31,884 bases of DNA, from positions 1-31,884 of the IMG/VR virus record IMGVR_UViG_3300033553_000565. One strand, written 5' to 3'. Below, one piece after another: positions 1-18,756 of this stretch. Position 1 is the stretch's first letter. Each line of letters begins with the position of its first letter. The DNA comes from a virus. The notes beneath the pieces were generated by a model. That model made no database searches. It was not told the DNA's origin and worked only from the letters and a program-made list of their open reading frames with translations. The translations under genes were made by a program, and so were the position numbers.

Positions 1-2265
1 GTAGAGCTTGCCCAGGCGGTCGACATAGCGGACCCCGCCCCAGGAGAAGCTGACACTGCCCGGGATGATGATCTTGCCGGTGATGCCGCGGGTCAGATCG
101 ACCACAAACGGCAGGGCCGGGGTGGTCTCGTTGGCGGTCTCCTGGGCGGCAGCGGCCAGCGAATAACGGACAGCCATACCGGCCGCGGACGCAGCGGTGA
201 GGACGGTGGTCGTTTTGCTGTACTTCTCCAGGAGCGTCCCCGGGATATTGTTGGTGAACCATCTTTTATAGACGATGGTGGTCACCACTTCGGTCCCGCT
301 GACCCCGGCCAGGTTGAGGACGATGATGCCGGTGGTATAATCGATAGTGCCGGCCAGGCCGGAGGCGGTGACATTTTTGGTAACATAGGAGCCCGGAATG
401 CCCGGCTCTACCTGGTCATCGGTGACATTGCCGCCCCAGCCGCCAGCTGAGACCGCCCCGTTGCCGTTATCGCGCAGGGCATAGACGTGGGCAGTGCCGT
501 TGTCCATGGTCACCGTCACCTCGGCGCCGAGGGAGCCCGGCTTGATCGGGGCCTCGGGCAGGGTAAAGGTGGTCCCGCTGCCGCCGGCATTGCCGGTGAT
601 AAAGGGATAACGGTCATAGTCGATGGTGTAGAAGCCGCCTGACGCCGGAATGGCCGTGGGCTTAAAAAGCAGCTGGCCGGTGGCGTAGTTGACAGTGCCG
701 GTGGCGGCGCCGGTAATAAGACCAAAGCCGTCATCGGTGGCGGTGACCGTTACCCCGCCGGACAGCCAGGAGATCAGCAGCGAACCCGGCTTGACCGGCG
801 GCGTGGCCAGCTGATGGCTGATTTCCGCGACATCAATCACCACGTCCTGGGCGATATCCTCCACTTCGAGGGGCGAGCCCCAGGCATAGATGATGCCGGA
901 GTCGACATCGGGCAGGGCGGCACAGGTGAGGATCACCGAGCCTGTGCCATAGTTGACGGTGCCGGTGCCGGTGCCGGCCACATCCGGGACCAGGGTGCCC
1001 AGGCCGTTATCGCGCAGGCGGTACCATTTGCCCTGGCTCATATAGTCGACCACCACCGTCTTTTTGACCGGCAATGGTTCGAGGATAACGGTGTAATTGT
1101 AGCCCTGATTGGCCAGCTCCACCGCCCTTATAATGGTGTTGGCCACCCGCTCAATAGCGGTGCCGATAATGGCTGTGGCGGTAGCGGTAGCGGTGGCGGC
1201 GACCACTTCGGCAAAGGTGATGGTGCCGAGACCGTAATCAACGGTACCGCGCTGGGCCAGGCCCTCATAGAGCAGGCCGTCGCTCTTGTCGGTGTAGGTC
1301 TTGCCGTTATGGACCAAGGACAGGCTGCCCATGGCGATGCCGCGGCCGAAATGGAACTGGGCCCCGTTGGTCAGGGCAAAGGCGGTCTTGACCACCGTGT
1401 AGGGGGCGCCGCTGCCGATCACCGGCCCGGCCTCGCCTACCGACAAATCGACCAGCGGCGATTCCCCCTGGGCCGACGGCACCAGGTGGGTAAAGATCGA
1501 CTCGACATTGATGGCGATATCGCCGGCACTGACCGGCGCGGTCGGCAGCATCACCCCGTAATATTTCGAGGCGTCCGAGACCACGGTGGTAAAGACGTTG
1601 GTGGCCAGGGAGTCATTGCGGCTGATCTCGACGCCGGGGAAGGTGGCGCGCAGCGGATCGCCGATCTCCAGCTGCAGGATATCGCGGCTGAAGGACATGG
1701 CCTGCGCTCCATATTCGGAATCGGAAGTGGTATTGAACTCCCCGCTGACCACCTCCACCTTGGTGAGGCGGACAAACTGCTGGATCTCGTTAGTCAGCCC
1801 TTTGTCTTTATAGAGGCACAGCACGCTGCCGACATCCGGCGTTTTCGTACCGCGCATGACAAAGAGCAGCAGGGCCCGGGAGCCCGCCGGCTGATCGCCC
1901 CACAGCCAGCCCTGAAATCTTGGCCCGACCGTGACATAGGACTCGACCCGGTTGCGCGCCGCGTCCCGCTCGTCATTGGCATCGCCGGTCGAAAACATGC
2001 AGACCGAGACGTTGGGATCAGCGGCCGGCAGCGACAGGATGACATGGGCCCCGGAATAGGTATCGGTATCGGCGGTCTGCACCGAGACAAAGGCCTTGCG
2101 CAAGGACACCCGACCATAGACCCGGTCGAGCCGGGAGATATCGGGAAAGAGGTTGTTGATATTGCCGTCGACAATCTCGACCCCGGTCATGCGGCCGCCG
2201 CCGTCGTCATTATCGGACAGGCGCTGCGAGGCCATCAGTTTGACGTCTTCTGTTAATATGGGCAT
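1..2265 (-). CDS. Large modular phage virion protein, C-terminus outside window
   Basis: The frame is open from ATG at 2265 (AAAGGA eight bases upstream) to the window edge, giving at least 755 residues without a stop. It lies just downstream of the tape measure and the small tail protein, so it is probably a tail-tip, baseplate or fibre component. The first ~250 residues are a mixed alpha/beta region. The rest is built from repeated beta-rich modules at about 1210-1335, 930-1080, 665-800 and 325-555, with another starting at 1-75. Modules tend to open with a PGS-type turn and close with a GTV(N/D)YxTGxI strand. No enzyme motif is visible. The long plus-strand frame opposite it (814-2256) is a high-GC shadow. 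The exact role is not recognised. Confidence 0.8.
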   Translation of the reverse strand, partial: MPILTEDVKLMASQRLSDNDDGGGRMTGVEIVDGNINNLFPDISRLDRVYGRVSLRKAFVSVQTADTDTYSGAHVILSLPAADPNVSVCMFSTGDANDERDAARNRVESYVTVGPRFQGWLWGDQPAGSRALLLFVMRGTKTPDVGSVLCLYKDKGLTNEIQQFVRLTKVEVVSGEFNTTSDSEYGAQAMSFSRDILQLEIGDPLRATFPGVEISRNDSLATNVFTTVVSDASKYYGVMLPTAPVSAGDIAINVESIFTHLVPSAQGESPLVDLSVGEAGPVIGSGAPYTVVKTAFALTNGAQFHFGRGIAMGSLSLVHNGKTYTDKSDGLLYEGLAQRGTVDYGLGTITFAEVVAATATATATAIIGTAIERVANTIIRAVELANQGYNYTVILEPLPVKKTVVVDYMSQGKWYRLRDNGLGTLVPDVAGTGTGTVNYGTGSVILTCAALPDVDSGIIYAWGSPLEVEDIAQDVVIDVAEISHQLATPPVKPGSLLISWLSGGVTVTATDDGFGLITGAATGTVNYATGQLLFKPTAIPASGGFYTIDYDRYPFITGNAGGSGTTFTLPEAPIKPGSLGAEVTVTMDNGTAHVYALRDNGNGAVSAGGWGGNVTDDQVEPGIPGSYVTKNVTASGLAGTIDYTTGIIVLNLAGVSGTEVVTTIVYKRWFTNNIPGTLLEKYSKTTTVLTAASAAGMAVRYSLAAAAQETANETTPALPFVVDLTRGITGKIIIPGSVSFSWGGVRYVDRLGKLY

Positions 2266-10657: not shown

Positions 10658-11191
10658 TTATTCCCAGCCCGTTATTTCATCCCGGATCATCTCCAGGATC
10701 CATGTCCGATCCTGGTCAGCGAGGTCCAGGCCATCACCCTTGTTCATGGCCAGATACTCCCTGGCCGGGATGGTCACTTTCCGGCCGCGTCCGGCCTGGC
10801 CGCCTCGCTGGTGGATGGCGGCGTAAAGGATGGAGCCGGAGCTGCCAATGGACACGCTGTCGCGATCCGCCTGGAAGTGGATCGAGCCTTCCAGATCACC
10901 GCTCTCCCGCAGGATCCGTTTGCCGGTGATGTAGCGCTTGCCTCTGGCCGACAGCCCGCCGTTCCTCTTCCAGCCTTTATTTTTCCCCAGCCCCATCATC
11001 ATGGTGTCCTGGGTCAGGGGCTTCCAGGGCGTGCCGTCCGGTGCTGATTCGGCCTTGAAGTTTTCCAGCACCCGCCGTTCGTAGAAGGCGCCGATCCTGG
11101 TCATCAGCGGCTTCATGTCGCCGGTCTTGGCCGCCAGCCTCTGCAGCAGGGCCGTCACCTCACGGTCATCTAGTCTGGCTGTGATATCCAT
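10658..11191 (-). CDS. G: Virion morphogenesis protein, Mu gpG type
   Basis: The 177-residue sequence has the phage virion morphogenesis family pattern (PF05069): an N-terminal DDREVTALLQRLAAKTGD helix, IGAFYERRVLENF, then PDGTPWKPL followed by KILRESG-type and SIHFQADRDSVSIGSSGSILYAAIHQRGG, and a final PAREYLAMN. Family members act in tail or head completion. It overlaps the end of gpF by 22 bases, and AAAGGA lies about eight bases before its ATG. A gap of ~120 bases to the protease gene follows. Confidence 0.92.
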   Translation of the reverse strand: MDITARLDDREVTALLQRLAAKTGDMKPLMTRIGAFYERRVLENFKAESAPDGTPWKPLTQDTMMMGLGKNKGWKRNGGLSARGKRYITGKRILRESGDLEGSIHFQADRDSVSIGSSGSILYAAIHQRGGQAGRGRKVTIPAREYLAMNKGDGLDLADQDRTWILEMIRDEITGWE

Positions 11192-11916
11192 TCCGTCAGT
11201 CCTTTGGCCGCCAGCTGCTCCATCCAGGCCGCGGCGATATCGGCAGGCATCTGCGCCATTTTCTGTTGCATTGATTCCATTAGCTGCTCTGTCCCCGCTG
11301 AGCCGACGTTATAATCCCAGCCCGCATCGGCCATGGTCTCCCAGCCCTGGGGCCTGATATTTTTGTCGCCCTCGTTGAATTCCTGCTCGGTGGCTGCCAC
11401 CGCCCGGCACTTGCAGCCCCAGCCGTTGGCCGGATAGTTGGCGGACCAGAACGGATCGGTGCGCGGCAGGACCGTGCCGTCCATCGCCACATGTTTGGGC
11501 CGGGGATGCCGAACTCCGTCGTTGTGGACATATTTCAAATAGTCGATGCCGCCGTCTGCAAACTGCTGCCAGCGGCCGGCCTGGTAAGCCGAGTTGATAT
11601 TGGTCCGCCAGATCAGGTTGCTGCGCCAGGCCGTCCCGCCGCCCTTCAGCTGCCAGCCGTACCGGGCCACCAGCGGCCGGAACTGCTTGCGGAATTCAAC
11701 GATATCCATCTCCCCGGCAATGGCCCGGTCGGTCATCGTCCGCAGCTCGGTGAGCAGATCAGCCTGATAAGCCCCTGCGCTGACAAAGGCCTTGGCATGA
11801 GCCGCCCCGGCGATATCGTCATAGGCCTTGGTCGGCAGGCTCAGCTTGTCGCGGAAAAATCGCGTCGCTTCGGCAAAGGGCAGATTGAATATGCGTTTAA
11901 ACTCTTCAGCGTTCAT
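11170..11916 (-). CDS. F: Minor head protein, Mu gpF type (SPP1 gp7 family)
   Basis: A 248-residue head morphogenesis protein. The family core is clear: WRTNINSAYQAGRWQQF, then DYLKYVHNDGVRHPRPKHVAMDG, WSANYPANGWGCKCRA with the conserved Trp-Gly-Cys-x-Cys, and an Asp-Pro-Phe-Trp segment. The protein is shorter than some gpF relatives (Mu gpF is much longer), so it may lack the extended N- or C-terminal region. In Mu this gene directly follows the portal gene; here five unrelated genes intervene. Confidence 0.92.
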   Translation of the reverse strand: MNAEEFKRIFNLPFAEATRFFRDKLSLPTKAYDDIAGAAHAKAFVSAGAYQADLLTELRTMTDRAIAGEMDIVEFRKQFRPLVARYGWQLKGGGTAWRSNLIWRTNINSAYQAGRWQQFADGGIDYLKYVHNDGVRHPRPKHVAMDGTVLPRTDPFWSANYPANGWGCKCRAVAATEQEFNEGDKNIRPQGWETMADAGWDYNVGSAGTEQLMESMQQKMAQMPADIAAAWMEQLAAKGLTEWISQPD

Positions 11917-11928
11917 TCGGTCCGGGTC

Positions 11929-12420
11929 TCACTTGTTTTGCTTAATGGCAGATTTCCCTCGGCCGGCTGCCGCTGCGGTCTTTTCCGCCTCGATATAGGT
12001 CTCTATTTTCTCCTGCAGGACGGCATCGTGTTTTTCAACTACCGCATTAAACCAAGAGATTTGCTTGCGATTGGCGTAATCCGGACAATTTTCGGGGTTG
12101 ACTATTACCGGCGGGCTTTCACAAAAGGGATCGGTGCTGATCTCCGGATAGACCACCGGCAGGATCTGGTCCGGGCCGTAGTAGGCGGCGCACTCGTCAA
12201 CATATACGGGGTCATAGATCATCGGCTCGTAGCGAAACTCTTTGCACAGGGCCTGCTGCAGCGTCTCCACCTGCAGGGCAGTCTCCACTTGATAACTGAA
12301 GGCGTCGATCAAAACAGGATCCGCGGCCTGGACCCGGCCCGGCATAATCGCCAGGAGCAACAGCCCGCCATAGGCCACAATTAAAACAGCCGCGAGAGAC
12401 ATCTTCATTTTCATCTTCAT
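11929..12420 (-). CDS. Secreted or membrane-anchored protein of unknown role
   Basis: I chose ATG 12420 because GAGG lies six bases upstream; an ATG at 12432 is in frame but has a poor ribosome site. The 163-residue protein starts with a Met-Lys repeat (MKMKMKM), then a long hydrophobic stretch (LAAVLIVAYGGLLLLAIM) and an Ala-x-Ala-like VQA/AD cleavage site, so it should be exported. The mature part has five Cys residues (…LCKEF, DECAAYY, PFCESP, ENCPDY) and a helical, Ala/Lys-rich tail. No family is recognised. It stands in the head operon between a DNA-binding-like gene and gpF, an odd place for an exported protein. Confidence 0.72.
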   Translation of the reverse strand: MKMKMKMSLAAVLIVAYGGLLLLAIMPGRVQAADPVLIDAFSYQVETALQVETLQQALCKEFRYEPMIYDPVYVDECAAYYGPDQILPVVYPEISTDPFCESPPVIVNPENCPDYANRKQISWFNAVVEKHDAVLQEKIETYIEAEKTAAAAGRGKSAIKQNK

Positions 12421-12436
12421 TCTCAGCCTCATCTTT

Positions 12437-12817
12437 TTATAAGTTTTGCCTTTCCCAGCTCCCCGGACTCCGGAGGGCCGCTAAATTGGCCAGCCGGTTC
12501 GCTGATAAGCCTTTATTGATATCTTCCACAACAATCGGTTCCCAATTCACAGTCATTCGGCGGATCCGGCCCCACAAGGCGGCGGGGGTAAGCCCCAATT
12601 CAAGGGCCTTTTCCTGGATTTTAAAGCCGTACTTTTTTTCCAGCGGTCCCTTACACACCTTACCTGTCAAAAGCACGTCATCATCGCTATATGTACCGTC
12701 CAGCCAGTTGCGTAGGCGTTTACGCATCGACACCCGCGATATGCCGGTTTTGTCAGCCAGCCCATTTACCAAAGTGCCAAAGCGGGCTGTCACTTTTGCC
12801 CTCTCTTCTCTAGTCAT
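12437..12817 (-). CDS. Small basic HTH-repeat protein, possibly DNA-binding
   Basis: A 126-residue basic protein. Two helix-turn-helix-like units can be seen: VNGLADKTGISRVSMRKRLRN (about residues 17-37) and QEKALELGLTPAALWGRIRR (about 68-87), followed by ANRLANLAALRSP and a final WERQNL. The units resemble the target-recognition modules that flank HNH homing nucleases, but no HNH motif is present. The ribosome site (GTAGGAGGCACC) overlaps the stop of the gene before. It may be an accessory regulator or a nuclease remnant. The role is inference. Confidence 0.6.
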   Translation of the reverse strand: MTREERAKVTARFGTLVNGLADKTGISRVSMRKRLRNWLDGTYSDDDVLLTGKVCKGPLEKKYGFKIQEKALELGLTPAALWGRIRRMTVNWEPIVVEDINKGLSANRLANLAALRSPGSWERQNL

Positions 12818-12825
12818 GGTGCCTC

Positions 12826-13299
12826 CTACTGGATAATCAACGCGCCGGTTACCACCGTCTCAGCGGTCGTTTCATCCACCTTGAGCAGCGGATTGAGGGC
12901 CGTGCCTAAAATTATTGCGCCCTTGACTGGGCTGATCGTGGAGCCGAGGACCAGATCTTCACCATCCGCGGTGCCACCATATATCTCCTGCCCACCAGCA
13001 TGGCCCAGTCTGGCGACTCCGCCCGAATCGTAAGCACCCACCGATATGGTTAAGGTCGTGCCGGTCACCGAGGTCACTACCCCGGTCCCACCCACGATAG
13101 TAATCGTGGTGATCGGGCCGCTGGCCATCGCACTGCCGGAATCACCGGCCACGGACTTAAATATATCCAGCCCGACCACTGGCCCCCTGATATCAAGGGT
13201 ACCTTCGACCTCCAAGTCGCCCACCGGTTCTGCGGCCACGGAGGCCGCCAACAGTAAGCAGAGGGCGATGGTGACGGTAAAGATGTTGCTTTTCTTCAT
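12826..13299 (-). CDS. Signal-peptide protein with fibre-like beta repeats
   Basis: The start at ATG 13299 has AGGAA four bases before it and gives a clean signal peptide (MKKSNIFTVTIALCLLLAAS, cleavage near VAAEP). A longer frame starting at 13341 is unlikely. The 157-residue mature body is beta-rich and fibre-like: IVGGTGVVTSVTGTTLTISV, QEIYGGTADGEDLVLGS and ALNPLLKVDET are phrases typical of phage and surface fibre shafts. Fibre proteins normally have no signal peptide, so an exported fibre-like protein inside a head operon is unusual. It may be a secreted surface or exclusion protein. Confidence 0.68.
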   Translation of the reverse strand: MKKSNIFTVTIALCLLLAASVAAEPVGDLEVEGTLDIRGPVVGLDIFKSVAGDSGSAMASGPITTITIVGGTGVVTSVTGTTLTISVGAYDSGGVARLGHAGGQEIYGGTADGEDLVLGSTISPVKGAIILGTALNPLLKVDETTAETVVTGALIIQ

Positions 13300-13309
13300 G
13301 CTATTCCTG

Positions 13310-13975
13310 TCATGGCTGAACTTTGTGATACCAGGTACCAACTATCGTAAAAACGGCCAGGTCAACCGTGAGGGTAGCACTGTCCACCACCACAACCCTG
13401 CTGGGCCGGATCCGCTGGCCACTGTCGTCCCACACCACCACATCCACAAACCTCTCGTCCAGACTATGATTGATGGTCAAAATCCCCGCCACCAAGTCGG
13501 CGGCCACAAAAGATGTGACTACGCCGGGCGCTAAGTCGGCACCAGCCGGACCAGCCGGGCCCATCGGGCCTTGCGGGCCAGGTGCGCCATCGGCCCCAGC
13601 GGGGCCAGGTGCGCCATCTATTCCGATCGTACCATCAGCACCGGCAGGACCAGCCGGGCCCATCGGGCCTTGAGGGCCAGCAGCGCCATCAGCACCAACC
13701 GGGCCAGGTGCGCCATCGGCACCGTCGCGGCCTTGCCTGATGACCGCCGTTATCTGCCTGGTGGTTCTGGCCACCGCGACTGTCACCGCCCTTTGGTCGA
13801 TGACCGCCGTTATCTGCCTGATGGTTTTGGCCACCGCGACTGTCACCACTCGTTGCTCGATGACCGCCGTTACCTGCCTGATTGTCCTGGCCACCGCGAC
13901 TGTCACTACCCGTTGCTCGATGACCGCCGTTATCTCGCGGCGGGGGATGGTGACGTTGACGGCAATATCAGCCAT
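13310..13975 (-). CDS. Collagen-like fibre protein with 20-residue beta repeats
   Basis: Of 221 residues, the first ~75 are three near-identical 20-residue repeats of the form TAVI(E/D)QR.VTVAVA(R/K)T, likely beta strands. Residues ~82-150 are Gly-x-y triplets ([23 protein letters not shown] twice) that should form a collagen-like triple helix. The C-terminal ~70 residues ([20 protein letters not shown] onwards) form a globular beta domain ending in VGTWYHKVQ. Similar layouts are used by phage fibres and head-surface fibres. The repeats make length changes by slippage likely. Confidence 0.82.
13741..13935. repeat. 60-bp tandem repeat array in fibre gene
   Basis: Three complete 60-bp units (13741-13800, 13801-13860, 13861-13920) and a 15-bp partial unit start with the same TGACCGCCGTTA motif (one C/T change in unit three). 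They differ at a handful of positions and keep an exact multiple of three, so each codes 20 residues of the fibre. A second smaller repeat, coding [15 protein letters not shown], occurs twice at about 13545-13680. No spacer-repeat alternation is seen, so this is not a CRISPR array. Confidence 0.93.
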
Positions 13976-14342
13976 GGGAGATGTCTTTAATTACAGCAAT
14001 CTCGCCGCACAGCCAGGTGTCCGACAAGCCGGAGGCGTCTGCGGTCTCAAAGGTTTCAAGATCCCATTCCCAGACCCCGACCGCCAGGGGCAGCGCCTGC
14101 TCCGGGATCGAGAAAGCATAAAGCACCGGGTCGTCAATGATGATAGTGCCCTGGCCCGTCAGCGGCTGGGACGATAATTCATAGCCCAGCGTCCCAGTCC
14201 CTTTGGCCCGAAACTGCAGGCGGCAGAACAGGCAGGGCGGGCCCACAACGCCGCCCGACTCATCGCTCATGCCGGCGATACCCCAGGCCGGCCATTTGCC
14301 GCCTCGCCGGTGGTTGCCTAATTCAATTACTGCTGGCTCCAT
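13968..14342 (-). CDS. Conserved phage protein of unknown function
   Basis: A 124-residue protein coupled to the portal gene by a TGATG overlap (start at 14342). The N-terminus is short and charged, with [10 protein letters not shown] after a Cys pair. The C-terminal half is beta-rich ([32 protein letters not shown], then [13 protein letters not shown]) and resembles the small beta-sandwich modules that code for fibre attachment in other phages. It overlaps the collagen-like fibre gene by eight bases, so it could be the fibre's anchor. That is a guess from position. Confidence 0.62.
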
Positions 14343-15925
14343 CAGATGCCTCCTGTTTCATCGGTTACGGTTACCCGGCCGCTCATATGGCTCAGCATCT
14401 CCACTCTGGCCATGACTTCAGCCAGCGCCTGCGGATCGGTGGCCGCAAACAGATCGATCAACTTTTCCCGGAACTCCTCCAGGCTGCTCACCTCGCCGAG
14501 CAGCGTTTCCGCCGCCACGATGATGGCCTCGGCCGGGCCTGCCGACTGCTCTTTTATCCAATCGAATAGAGAAGACTCGACATCGGCAGCTGGCAACGGT
14601 TGCTGCCGGTTCTGCGCTGTTTTATTATCCTGCTGCTTGGACTCTTTTTCGCCGGGCCCAGGGGCGGGCGGGGCAGCCTGTTGTGACGGCTGCAGGATAT
14701 CCGCATCTTTGGCCGGCTCCGGCAGGCCCAGTTTGTCACGGACGACCGACTGCTCCACCCGCAGGCCGAGCGGTACCAGTTTTTCCAGGGCCGTGGTCAG
14801 TACGGTCAGGTCTTCATTTTCGACCGCCCTTAAGACCAGCTCCGGATAGTTCTCCTGGGGGCCGAAGTTCAGGTCGATAAAAGGCCGGACCAGGTCACGG
14901 TTGATGGTTTCGGAGATCTGGGTGGCATCGTCATCGCGGATATCCGAGCGCACTTCCGATTGCGCCTCATCGCCGCCGAGCTTGCCGGGTGTCCCCTGGG
15001 TAGTTGCGGACTGGCCGAGGATCCCACGGCTGACCTGGACGTCGAGCCAATCGGCCAGGCGCATGTAGAGCGTATCGCCACCGGTCGACTTGCCGCCTTC
15101 GATGAATTCAATCTTCATCGACTCAGGGATGACCGCCGCCGCATCGCTGCCCAGATTGGCCACCGCCATCTTCAGGATGTTGATGTCTTCTTTCAAGGCG
15201 CCGCTCTGATATTTACCAAGACGCAGCGGCATGCCAAAGACCTCTGCAAAGGCCAGCCAGTCTTTGACCGCATAGTTTTTGCAGAGGTACGACCAGGCCG
15301 CCACCCTGGCCAGACCGCCCCGGATCGGCAGGCCGGTCTTCAGGTGCGGCAGATGAACAATGAATTTGTAAGGAGCAAGCTCGATCCCGTCCACCATGTT
15401 GGCGGTATCGAGCAGCCGGATTTTACGTCGGGACTCGCGGTCAAAAACAAAAAAACGGGGATCCCGCCATTCGTAGGCCGCCGGCAGCCATTTGGCCCCG
15501 CGCTGCCACATGATCTCGGAGACCGAATAGCCTTTACCCAGGGCATCGAGCAGATCCTTCAGGAGGCCCCGGAACCCGGCCCGCTTGATCATGGCCCGGA
15601 CTTCGTCGGCCAGCTGCACGTCTTTGGCATCATCGCTTGCCGCCTCAACCGTGATCGGCAGGGAGGCCACGGCCAGCCGCCGTTTGCCGATCTCGCAACG
15701 ATAATGCAGATCCCGCTCCTCCATCTCGCCAGCCAGGGTCAAGTAGTCATTGGCATCGCCTGCCGCCGCGCCCTGGAGCAGAGCCGCCAGCCGGTAAGGG
15801 GTCAGGCCGCCGGTCACCGCTTCGTCCCAGACCGTACGCACGCCGGACAGAGTGGGGGCCGCGAGCTCCTCTTTCAGCTGTTGCGGCATAACTTTATTGC
15901 CGCGATGATCGTAGAGTATCCCCAT
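14342..15925 (-). CDS. Portal protein, Mu gp29 type (DUF935)
   Basis: A 527-residue portal that forms the DNA-entry ring. Recognisable segments are GLTPYRLAALLQGAAAGDANDYLTL, EERDLHYRCEIGKRRLAV, LLDALGKGYSVSEIMW and KNYAVKDWLAFAEVFGMPLRLGKY, followed by the GGDTLYMRLADWLDVQVSRGILGQ block. The C-terminal ~120 residues (from about 410) are rich in Gln, Pro and charge and form a flexible tail. ATG 15925 overlaps the large terminase stop as TAATG. Length is close to Mu gp29. Confidence 0.95.
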   Translation of the reverse strand: MGILYDHRGNKVMPQQLKEELAAPTLSGVRTVWDEAVTGGLTPYRLAALLQGAAAGDANDYLTLAGEMEERDLHYRCEIGKRRLAVASLPITVEAASDDAKDVQLADEVRAMIKRAGFRGLLKDLLDALGKGYSVSEIMWQRGAKWLPAAYEWRDPRFFVFDRESRRKIRLLDTANMVDGIELAPYKFIVHLPHLKTGLPIRGGLARVAAWSYLCKNYAVKDWLAFAEVFGMPLRLGKYQSGALKEDINILKMAVANLGSDAAAVIPESMKIEFIEGGKSTGGDTLYMRLADWLDVQVSRGILGQSATTQGTPGKLGGDEAQSEVRSDIRDDDATQISETINRDLVRPFIDLNFGPQENYPELVLRAVENEDLTVLTTALEKLVPLGLRVEQSVVRDKLGLPEPAKDADILQPSQQAAPPAPGPGEKESKQQDNKTAQNRQQPLPAADVESSLFDWIKEQSAGPAEAIIVAAETLLGEVSSLEEFREKLIDLFAATDPQALAEVMARVEMLSHMSGRVTVTDETGGI

Positions 15926-18044: not shown

Positions 18045-18295
18045 GCGATCCCCAGGGCCTTCTTCATGGCGGCGATCTCACCGATCAGGCCGAGATAGTC
18101 GGCATGTTTGGCGGCCAGCTCCACGGCTTGGACGGCTGCCTGCTGGGCCTGCAGCTCTGCCACCCGGACAAAAGGCGGCAGGAGCGCCCGCACGGCTGAG
18201 ACATCACCGTCAATCGACATCTCCAGGCGGCGGGCCTCTTGCTCTTTTTCGGCCAGGCGGCCGCGCGCGGTCAATCTTTCAGTATCAAAGCTCAT
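18041..18295 (-). CDS. Small helical protein before terminase
   Basis: The 84-residue protein probably starts at ATG 18295, which overlaps the upstream stop (ATGA) behind a GGGGGAAGAAAAGG ribosome site. A TTG 30 bases earlier also opens the frame but is inside the previous gene. Sequence is Ala/Glu/Leu-rich and helical throughout (AVQAVELAAKHADYLGLIGEIAAM). It matches the position of Mu gp26-like genes between lysis and packaging. No known activity; likely a packaging or lysis accessory. Confidence 0.7.
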   Translation of the reverse strand: MSFDTERLTARGRLAEKEQEARRLEMSIDGDVSAVRALLPPFVRVAELQAQQAAVQAVELAAKHADYLGLIGEIAAMKKALGIA

Positions 18296-18756
18296 CCTTT
18301 TCTTCCCCCGTTGCCATTGCTCCAAATGCCGATTAACTGGTCAAATTTGCCGCCGAGAGAGGTCATGGCCTGGGTGTTGAGATAAATCAGGTTGGCCATG
18401 TCGCCGGCTGTCTTCTCCCAGTTTTTGACGAGATAGATATTGTTGTCGTACTTGACCGAGAACTCGGCATGCTGCTGGTTGAACATCCCGACCATCGCCT
18501 CGAAACGCTTGCTGTCCTGTTCATTTTTGGTACGGATCTCGTCTTTTAGGGATGTCATCGTGGTCTCGAAGCGATTATTGTCCAGCTCGTTCTTGGTACG
18601 GATCACATCTTTCAGGGCTGACATCGCCCCGACCACCTTGTACACCGCCACCAAACCCAGGGCCGGCGGCACCACGAAGATGCAGAGAATGACCGTGCCC
18701 ACGGTCCAGCCGTTCAGCGCCGTGAAGAAGGTGGCGATTGCCGTGATTAGTTCCAT
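18292..18756 (-). CDS. Membrane-anchored coiled-coil protein, possible spanin
   Basis: The 154-residue protein has an N-terminal hydrophobic hairpin or single anchor (residues ~5-41; TVILCIFVVPPALGLVAVY) and then two tandem 22-residue coiled-coil repeats (LKDVIRTKNELDNNRFE, then LKDEIRTKNEQDSKRFE; residues 46-89). The 66-bp units are visible in the DNA. The remainder is polar. It lies in the lysis block, and inner-membrane spanins have this shape (one anchor, periplasmic coiled coil). No outer-membrane lipoprotein partner gene is visible, so the spanin call is tentative. ATG 18756 has GAGGAG seven bases before it. Confidence 0.72.
   Translation of the reverse strand: MELITAIATFFTALNGWTVGTVILCIFVVPPALGLVAVYKVVGAMSALKDVIRTKNELDNNRFETTMTSLKDEIRTKNEQDSKRFEAMVGMFNQQHAEFSVKYDNNIYLVKNWEKTAGDMANLIYLNTQAMTSLGGKFDQLIGIWSNGNGGRKG

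Follow-up and report, generated by a model that had tools for sequence, protein, structure and literature searches.

A block of five genes (A to E, 11929-14342, minus strand) between the portal and gpF genes of a Mu-like head operon is best read as a swappable accessory module that has been exchanged between phages. The window in which it lies is the whole linear IMG/VR virus record IMGVR_UViG_3300033553_000565, with a length of 31,884 nucleotides. This reading is supported by sequence comparison, as the site is closed in the nearest relatives, its content varies where it is filled, and the block moves between phages. A cargo site had been proposed here in an earlier note based on the DNA letters, and this claim is now well supported. 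Regarding the products, a somewhat better than even chance is given to the overall explanation of an exchangeable late-operon module in which A and B form a virion fibre and C and E are exported to the envelope.

The Mu-type head operon of the window comprises genes for the terminase, portal, gpF, gpG, protease, a gp35-like protein and the gpT major head protein, and is accompanied by a flexible-tail module (Ig-like major tail protein and tape measure) and a Mu-type transposase. The late genes are located on the minus strand. All five ORFs were found where the earlier note had placed them, on the same strand as both the Mu-type portal (gp29) gene upstream (14342..15925, minus strand; Portal_Mu, E 2.4e-104) and the gene for a gpF-type minor head protein downstream (11170..11916, minus strand; Phage_Mu_F, E 3.2e-12). 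The gaps from portal through A, B, C, D and E to gpF are -1, -8, 10, 8, 4 and 12 nt, and the tight coupling to the head operon that had been claimed thus holds throughout. With every intergenic gap at 12 nt or less, the block has no room for a promoter of its own. Promoter-like sites show no excess (2 versus 1.5 expected, none on the coding strand), and the two terminator-like sites on the coding strand within the block are weak and little above chance. The block is therefore not a moron in the strict sense, which implies its own promoter and terminator. Because of the tight packing, it is probably expressed late and translated from the late head operon. The GC content of D (52 %) and E (54 %) is lower than that of the flanks (about 58-63 %), while A, B and C are flank-like. 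The length of gpF differs between loci, with 248 AA in the window, 370 AA in L031, 261 AA in L032 and 439 AA for gp30 of Mu. Elsewhere in the window, a 66-bp tandem repeat (1.9 copies, 18499-18626) lies within an ORF (18292-18756) with weak similarity to tail fibre PHROG 1162, and a long tail gene that follows the tape measure gene (1-2265, minus strand) is cut off by the window end. A plus-strand ORF at 814-2256 was rejected as spurious because this long tail ORF covers the same stretch.

The content of the portal-gpF slot was surveyed in 112 loci collected with portal and gpF as main probes, and both genes were found in 96 of them. The gap between the two genes was closed (131 nt or less) in 80 of the 96, measured 166-773 nt in 12 and exceeded 1 kb in four, namely the window, L031, L032 and L012. 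The slots of intermediate size belong mostly to Pseudomonas prophages and mostly hold small genes, several of them with one antisense ORF. As had been noted earlier, gp29 and gp30/F are neighbours in Mu, where the two genes overlap; the pair is likewise contiguous in D3112, Alteromonadaceae phage B23 and Vibrio phage martha 12B12. In the nearest relatives by portal identity (L002, 92 %; L003, 87 %; L004, 81 %), portal and gpF overlap by 4 nt and the slot is closed. Since whole-record profile searches with A and E found nothing in these three, the block is absent from them and was not moved, and a relocation of the cassette from the tail-fibre locus in the empty relatives is likewise ruled out. 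The same site is thus closed in L002, L003 and L004 and filled in the window, L031 and L032, a pattern of presence and absence among close relatives that is typical of an accessory insertion. Other contents were also found. The slot of L012 (8970-11586), a distant Mu-like relative, encodes a GDSL-esterase fibre of 618 AA and a LamG lectin, neither of which is related to A-E. In L070, a Mu-like prophage of Pseudomonas huaxiensis, it holds an antisense gene of 239 AA (11539-12258, minus strand) matching the defence-library model PD-T4-10_B, a part of an anti-phage defence system (E 1e-39). The slot content therefore varies among relatives, being closed in the nearest, filled in some and variable in its interior, and the same five genes were not seen in all relatives.

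In total, carriers of the block were found in four phages, one of them a fragment, and in one prophage. L031 and L032, whose portals are about 70 % identical to that of the window, have A, B, C and E arranged as in the window, with amino acid identities to the window of 76-79 % for A, 78 % for B, 65-77 % for C and 58-70 % for E. The interval between C and E holds D in the window, an exported-type protein of 319 AA and a homolog of D in L031, and a phrog_2044 protein of 82 AA and an HNH endonuclease (phrog_1891, E 1e-58) in L032. A, B, C and E thus constitute a fixed core, with variation limited to the C-E interval, so that for the block the site is not a free-for-all slot. The additional protein of L031 (6010-6969) contains a repeat of about 90 AA that is 50 % identical to the head decoration/head-DNA stabilisation protein D of Pseudomonas phages. 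In the fragment L033, A (81 %) and the beginning of B follow a portal of a different type. This portal (L033:2683-4197) is divergent and Mu-family-like, and its last ~70 residues match the portal tail of the carriers; it is a chimera with a junction close upstream of the cassette. None of the carrier contigs extends far enough to include the tail-fibre genes.

The history of the block differs from that of the flanking core genes. In a portal tree built from the first 430 residues, the window groups with the empty L002 and L003, and L031 and L032 are placed elsewhere beside L043, which is also empty. A single clade for the three carriers is rejected on this tree (delta lnL 52.9, p-AU 1e-5). At the upstream edge, the final 62 nt of the portal gene are set apart: the identity between the window and L002 falls there from 0.91 to 0.48 (Fisher p 2e-11), and that between the window and L033 rises from 0.53 to 0.90 (p 9e-9). 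At the downstream edge, gpF is 0.61 identical to L002 over its initial 36 nt and 0.89 beyond them (p 9e-5). These breakpoints, which cover the last ~20 portal codons and the first ~12 gpF codons, flank the block, and the aligned sequences indicate that the exchanged unit includes the terminal ~62 nt of portal and the initial ~36 nt of gpF. Judging from the identity shifts at both edges, recombination within the portal and gpF genes most likely brought the block into this lineage together with the adjoining ends of the two genes. Between carriers, A has accumulated fewer synonymous changes (dS 0.42-0.70) than the portal (dS 1.0-1.4). The pN/pS values of 0.2-0.5 for A, B, C and E indicate purifying selection and thus that these genes are maintained. 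L002 (5623-8597) shows mosaicism at another point, between terminase and portal, as its terminase is only 33 % but its portal 92 % identical to the window.

A copy of the block was also found in a different kind of phage. A profile search with E gave one match among 258 genomes of the order of Desulfobulbaceae bacterium BRH_c16a (L136), and among about 395 genomes of the phylum no further copies of E and C were found. In this Desulfobulbales-type genome, B, C, D and E follow in the same order as in the window, with blastp identities to the window of 69 % for B, 71 % for C, 46 % for D and 58 % for E; the E proteins of the phage copies are 49-56 % identical to the L136 copy. The DNA identity to the window is 66-71 % and ends at the stop codon of E. 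The surrounding prophage has a GpA-type terminase and a lambda-family portal. Here, the block begins 6 nt after a Hydrolase_2 endolysin gene and is followed by three small genes and then host-looking genes. As in the Mu-like setting, it is packed directly behind a late gene. Since B-C-D-E also occurs behind the endolysin of a lambda-type prophage, the block is not head-specific, and it moves between phages with unrelated heads. A and the N-terminal repeats of B are missing from this copy; no profile match was obtained between A and a beta-rich-looking gene of 120 AA located beside it.

Gene A (13968..14342, minus strand; 124 AA) encodes a beta-rich protein and a probable fibre adaptor. It is conserved among the carriers, with 76-79 % amino acid identity in L031 and L032 and 81 % in L033, but no homolog was found in GenBank phages, no family match was obtained at E<=0.05, and a pattern search of 84,980 species genomes found none. 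The beta-sandwich suggested by the earlier note is only a low-confidence prediction: beta strands are predicted, and the AlphaFold model, with a pLDDT of 35, is too poor for a fold search. Gene B (13310..13975, minus strand; 221 AA) is, by sequence, a collagen-shafted fibre. It consists of about four 20-AA beta repeats, a Gly-X-Y triplet stretch and a conserved C-terminal domain, and it matches the Pfam Collagen family (E 2.5e-13) and tail fibre PHROGs (E down to 9e-16). The collagen-like fibre and the 60-bp repeats described earlier are both real; however, the 60-bp repeat (13739-13935, minus strand; 3.3 copies, 90 % match, TRF) encodes the N-terminal 20-AA beta-type repeat and not the collagen part, and the Gly-X-Y part has a separate 99-bp repeat (13539-13717, minus strand; TRF). 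Among the carriers, both the beta repeat region and the Gly-X-Y part vary in length, and the number of beta repeat units in L031 differs from the window. The C-terminal domain is 71-84 % identical across homologs and has a weak match to structural proteins from the virions of large phages (PaBG and Dickeya phages). Neither A nor B has a signal peptide. In PDB sequence searches, B matched collagens, and A, C and E had chance-level matches only.

Gene C (12826..13299, minus strand; 157 AA) has a predicted signal peptide and a trimeric-fibre motif, as judged from its N-terminus and its match to phrog_677, a baseplate wedge/tail fibre connector (E 4e-10). Its start is most likely the ATG at 13299 rather than the TTG at 13341 because homologs start there and an AGGA-type site precedes it. 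The motif VAGDSGSA...GGTG..TSVSG is common to C and baseplate/tail fibre connectors (phrog_677; L130 and L131 look like such genes), in agreement with the earlier description of C as fibre-like. Homologs of C are 77 % identical in L031, 71 % in L136 and, over its C-terminal part, 70 % in L032, where an insert of 411 AA separates the signal peptide from the conserved C-terminal part. The predicted signal peptide is present at the N-terminus of every copy with a known start and argues against a simple virion assembly of C. Sec signals had been claimed for two proteins of the block, and those of C and E were indeed conserved in their homologs, with a positive n-region, a hydrophobic core and an AxA motif as judged by a heuristic hydropathy script rather than by SignalP. 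No lipobox was seen by eye in either protein.

Gene E (11929..12432, minus strand; 167 AA) combines its Sec-type N-terminus with four conserved cysteines, as expected from its earlier description as an exported Cys-rich protein, and these features are typical of a periplasmic disulfide protein, which E may be. A helical C-terminus is predicted with low confidence, the AlphaFold model (pLDDT 45) is too poor for a fold search, and no family match was found. Neither A nor E has recognisable relatives beyond these loci, and none of the genes A-E of the window has a match in the defence library. Gene D (12437..12817, minus strand; 126 AA) occupies the variable position and has two HTH-like units. 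Its description as an HTH-repeat protein holds in part: the match of the window protein is weak and misses the cut-off (E 0.007), whereas that of a homolog is better and just under it (E 2e-4). D is 29 % identical to its counterpart in L031 and 46-50 % identical to that of the lambda-type prophage, and no further copy was found in the viral contigs searched. The window protein contains only the HTH-like units and no nuclease domain, the HNH domain being confined to L032.

Taken together, A-E form a horizontally exchanged accessory module at a recurrent insertion site between portal and gpF, which spreads among phages through recombination in the head genes on either side and enters other late operons as well. 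The accessory status, the exchange, the fixed A-B-C-E core, the variable interior and the purifying selection are shown by the sequences, whereas late expression, a place of A and B in the virion, and export and an envelope role of C and E are inferred. The fibre motifs of B and C, the decoration-like repeat in L031 and the signal peptides of C and E make a role in virion decoration or at the host surface plausible. It is fairly probable that A and B join the virion, where they would build an accessory collagen-shafted trimeric fibre with the C-terminal domain of B as its tip and A perhaps as an adaptor. Such an A-B adaptor role is not universal because neither A nor the N-terminal repeats of B are present in the prophage copy. 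The fibre-like C and the four-cysteine protein E, with their Sec signals, are likely exported to the envelope of the producing cell. There, they may act on a surface target that is also recognised by the fibre, for example by masking the receptor at release or by excluding competitors; this joint role is a guess by analogy and should be regarded as doubtful. D, or the HNH gene at its position in L032, may mark a DNA-binding or homing-type interior. Equally tentative is the idea of a transferable unit of a fibre and its envelope partners that is passed as a whole between Mu-like and lambda-like phages of sulfate-reducing-type bacteria; the hosts of the viral contigs were inferred from relatives.

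Alternatively, all products could be virion parts, such as head or neck decoration fibres, with the hydrophobic N-termini of C and E acting in assembly and not in Sec export. The location in the head operon, the similarity of the L031 repeat to decoration protein D and the motif that C has in common with baseplate/tail fibre connectors are consistent with this. However, B-C-D-E is also found in a lambda-type prophage whose head is unrelated, downstream of its lysis genes, and C, E and the additional L031 protein all have a signal-peptide layout, which is conserved in the homologs of C and E. This explanation is considered unlikely. The block might also be cargo for lysogenic conversion or superinfection exclusion, in which case exported proteins would act at the surface of the lysogen and the fibre-like appearance would be incidental. 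The signal peptides of C and E, the position of the lambda-type copy near the host end of its prophage and the antisense defence-like gene in the L070 slot fit such cargo, which nevertheless appears quite improbable, since in both contexts the block closely follows a late gene and reads in its direction, lacks an excess of promoter-like sites and includes A and B, which have no signals.

A selfish passenger, whose middle DNA-binding or HNH gene spreads the flanking genes by homing and requires no benefit, would explain the HNH endonuclease in L032, the tandem HTH protein D in others and the breakpoints at the slot edges. It is very improbable given the purifying selection on A, B, C and E, the missing nuclease domain in D and the fact that no cleavage site is known. 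A fixed part of the head module in this phage group, despite the tight coupling with portal and gpF, is rejected by the slots that are empty in the nearest relatives and closed in most loci, and by the copy located away from any Mu-type head.

The preferred reading of an exchangeable late-operon module can be compared with several known systems. In collagen-like phage tail fibres (PHROGs 366, 6320 and 1806), a Gly-X-Y shaft, N-terminal repeats and a C-terminal tip are found as in B, but B is encoded in a head operon together with partners carrying Sec signals. The head decoration protein D repeat of Pseudomonas siphophages resembles the repeat of about 90 AA in the additional L031 gene, but it is not part of the cassette of the window itself. 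In T5, the llp gene adjoins the gene for the receptor-binding protein, and the exported Llp blocks the receptor. A similar arrangement, a gene for a receptor-binding virion protein beside one for an exported protein, may exist here by analogy; in contrast to C and E, for which no lipobox was seen, Llp is a lipoprotein. Like lambdoid morons, the block consists of extra genes between two genes that are adjacent in relatives. A deviant base composition may be a further parallel, but the lower GC content is seen in D and E and not in A, B and C. Unlike them, it comprises multiple genes in a late operon and leaves no space for an independent promoter and terminator.

The closest parallel is provided by the D3112-type Mu-like phages of P. 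aeruginosa, which have accessory regions (RGPs) between core head genes that vary among close relatives (PMC4378225). In D3112, acrF2, which encodes an anti-CRISPR, and two small ORFs are located between G and the protease gene. Both cases have accessory genes between core head genes of a phage with a Mu-type head and a flexible tail. They differ in that the site of the window is the portal-gpF junction, which is closed in D3112 and Mu, and in that the block comprises five genes, with fibre-like and exported proteins among their products, and its conserved core is found in another setting as well. In the literature searched, no description was found of a portal-gpF site with a conserved fibre/export block that is also present in a lambda-type prophage. 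Accessory sites in the Mu-like head operon are therefore already known, and the portal-gpF fibre/export block is apparently new as far as searched. If A and B are virion fibres, phages could gain surface-binding parts at a site in the head operon, away from the tail-fibre locus. Screens for cargo can also be directed at the portal-gpF junction, as the GDSL fibre and the lectin in L012 and the defence-like gene in L070 show. The accessory sites known from head operons of Mu-like phages mainly hold small genes of the anti-CRISPR type. Here, a neighbouring site is occupied by a larger block of genes for fibre-like and exported proteins that are inherited together.
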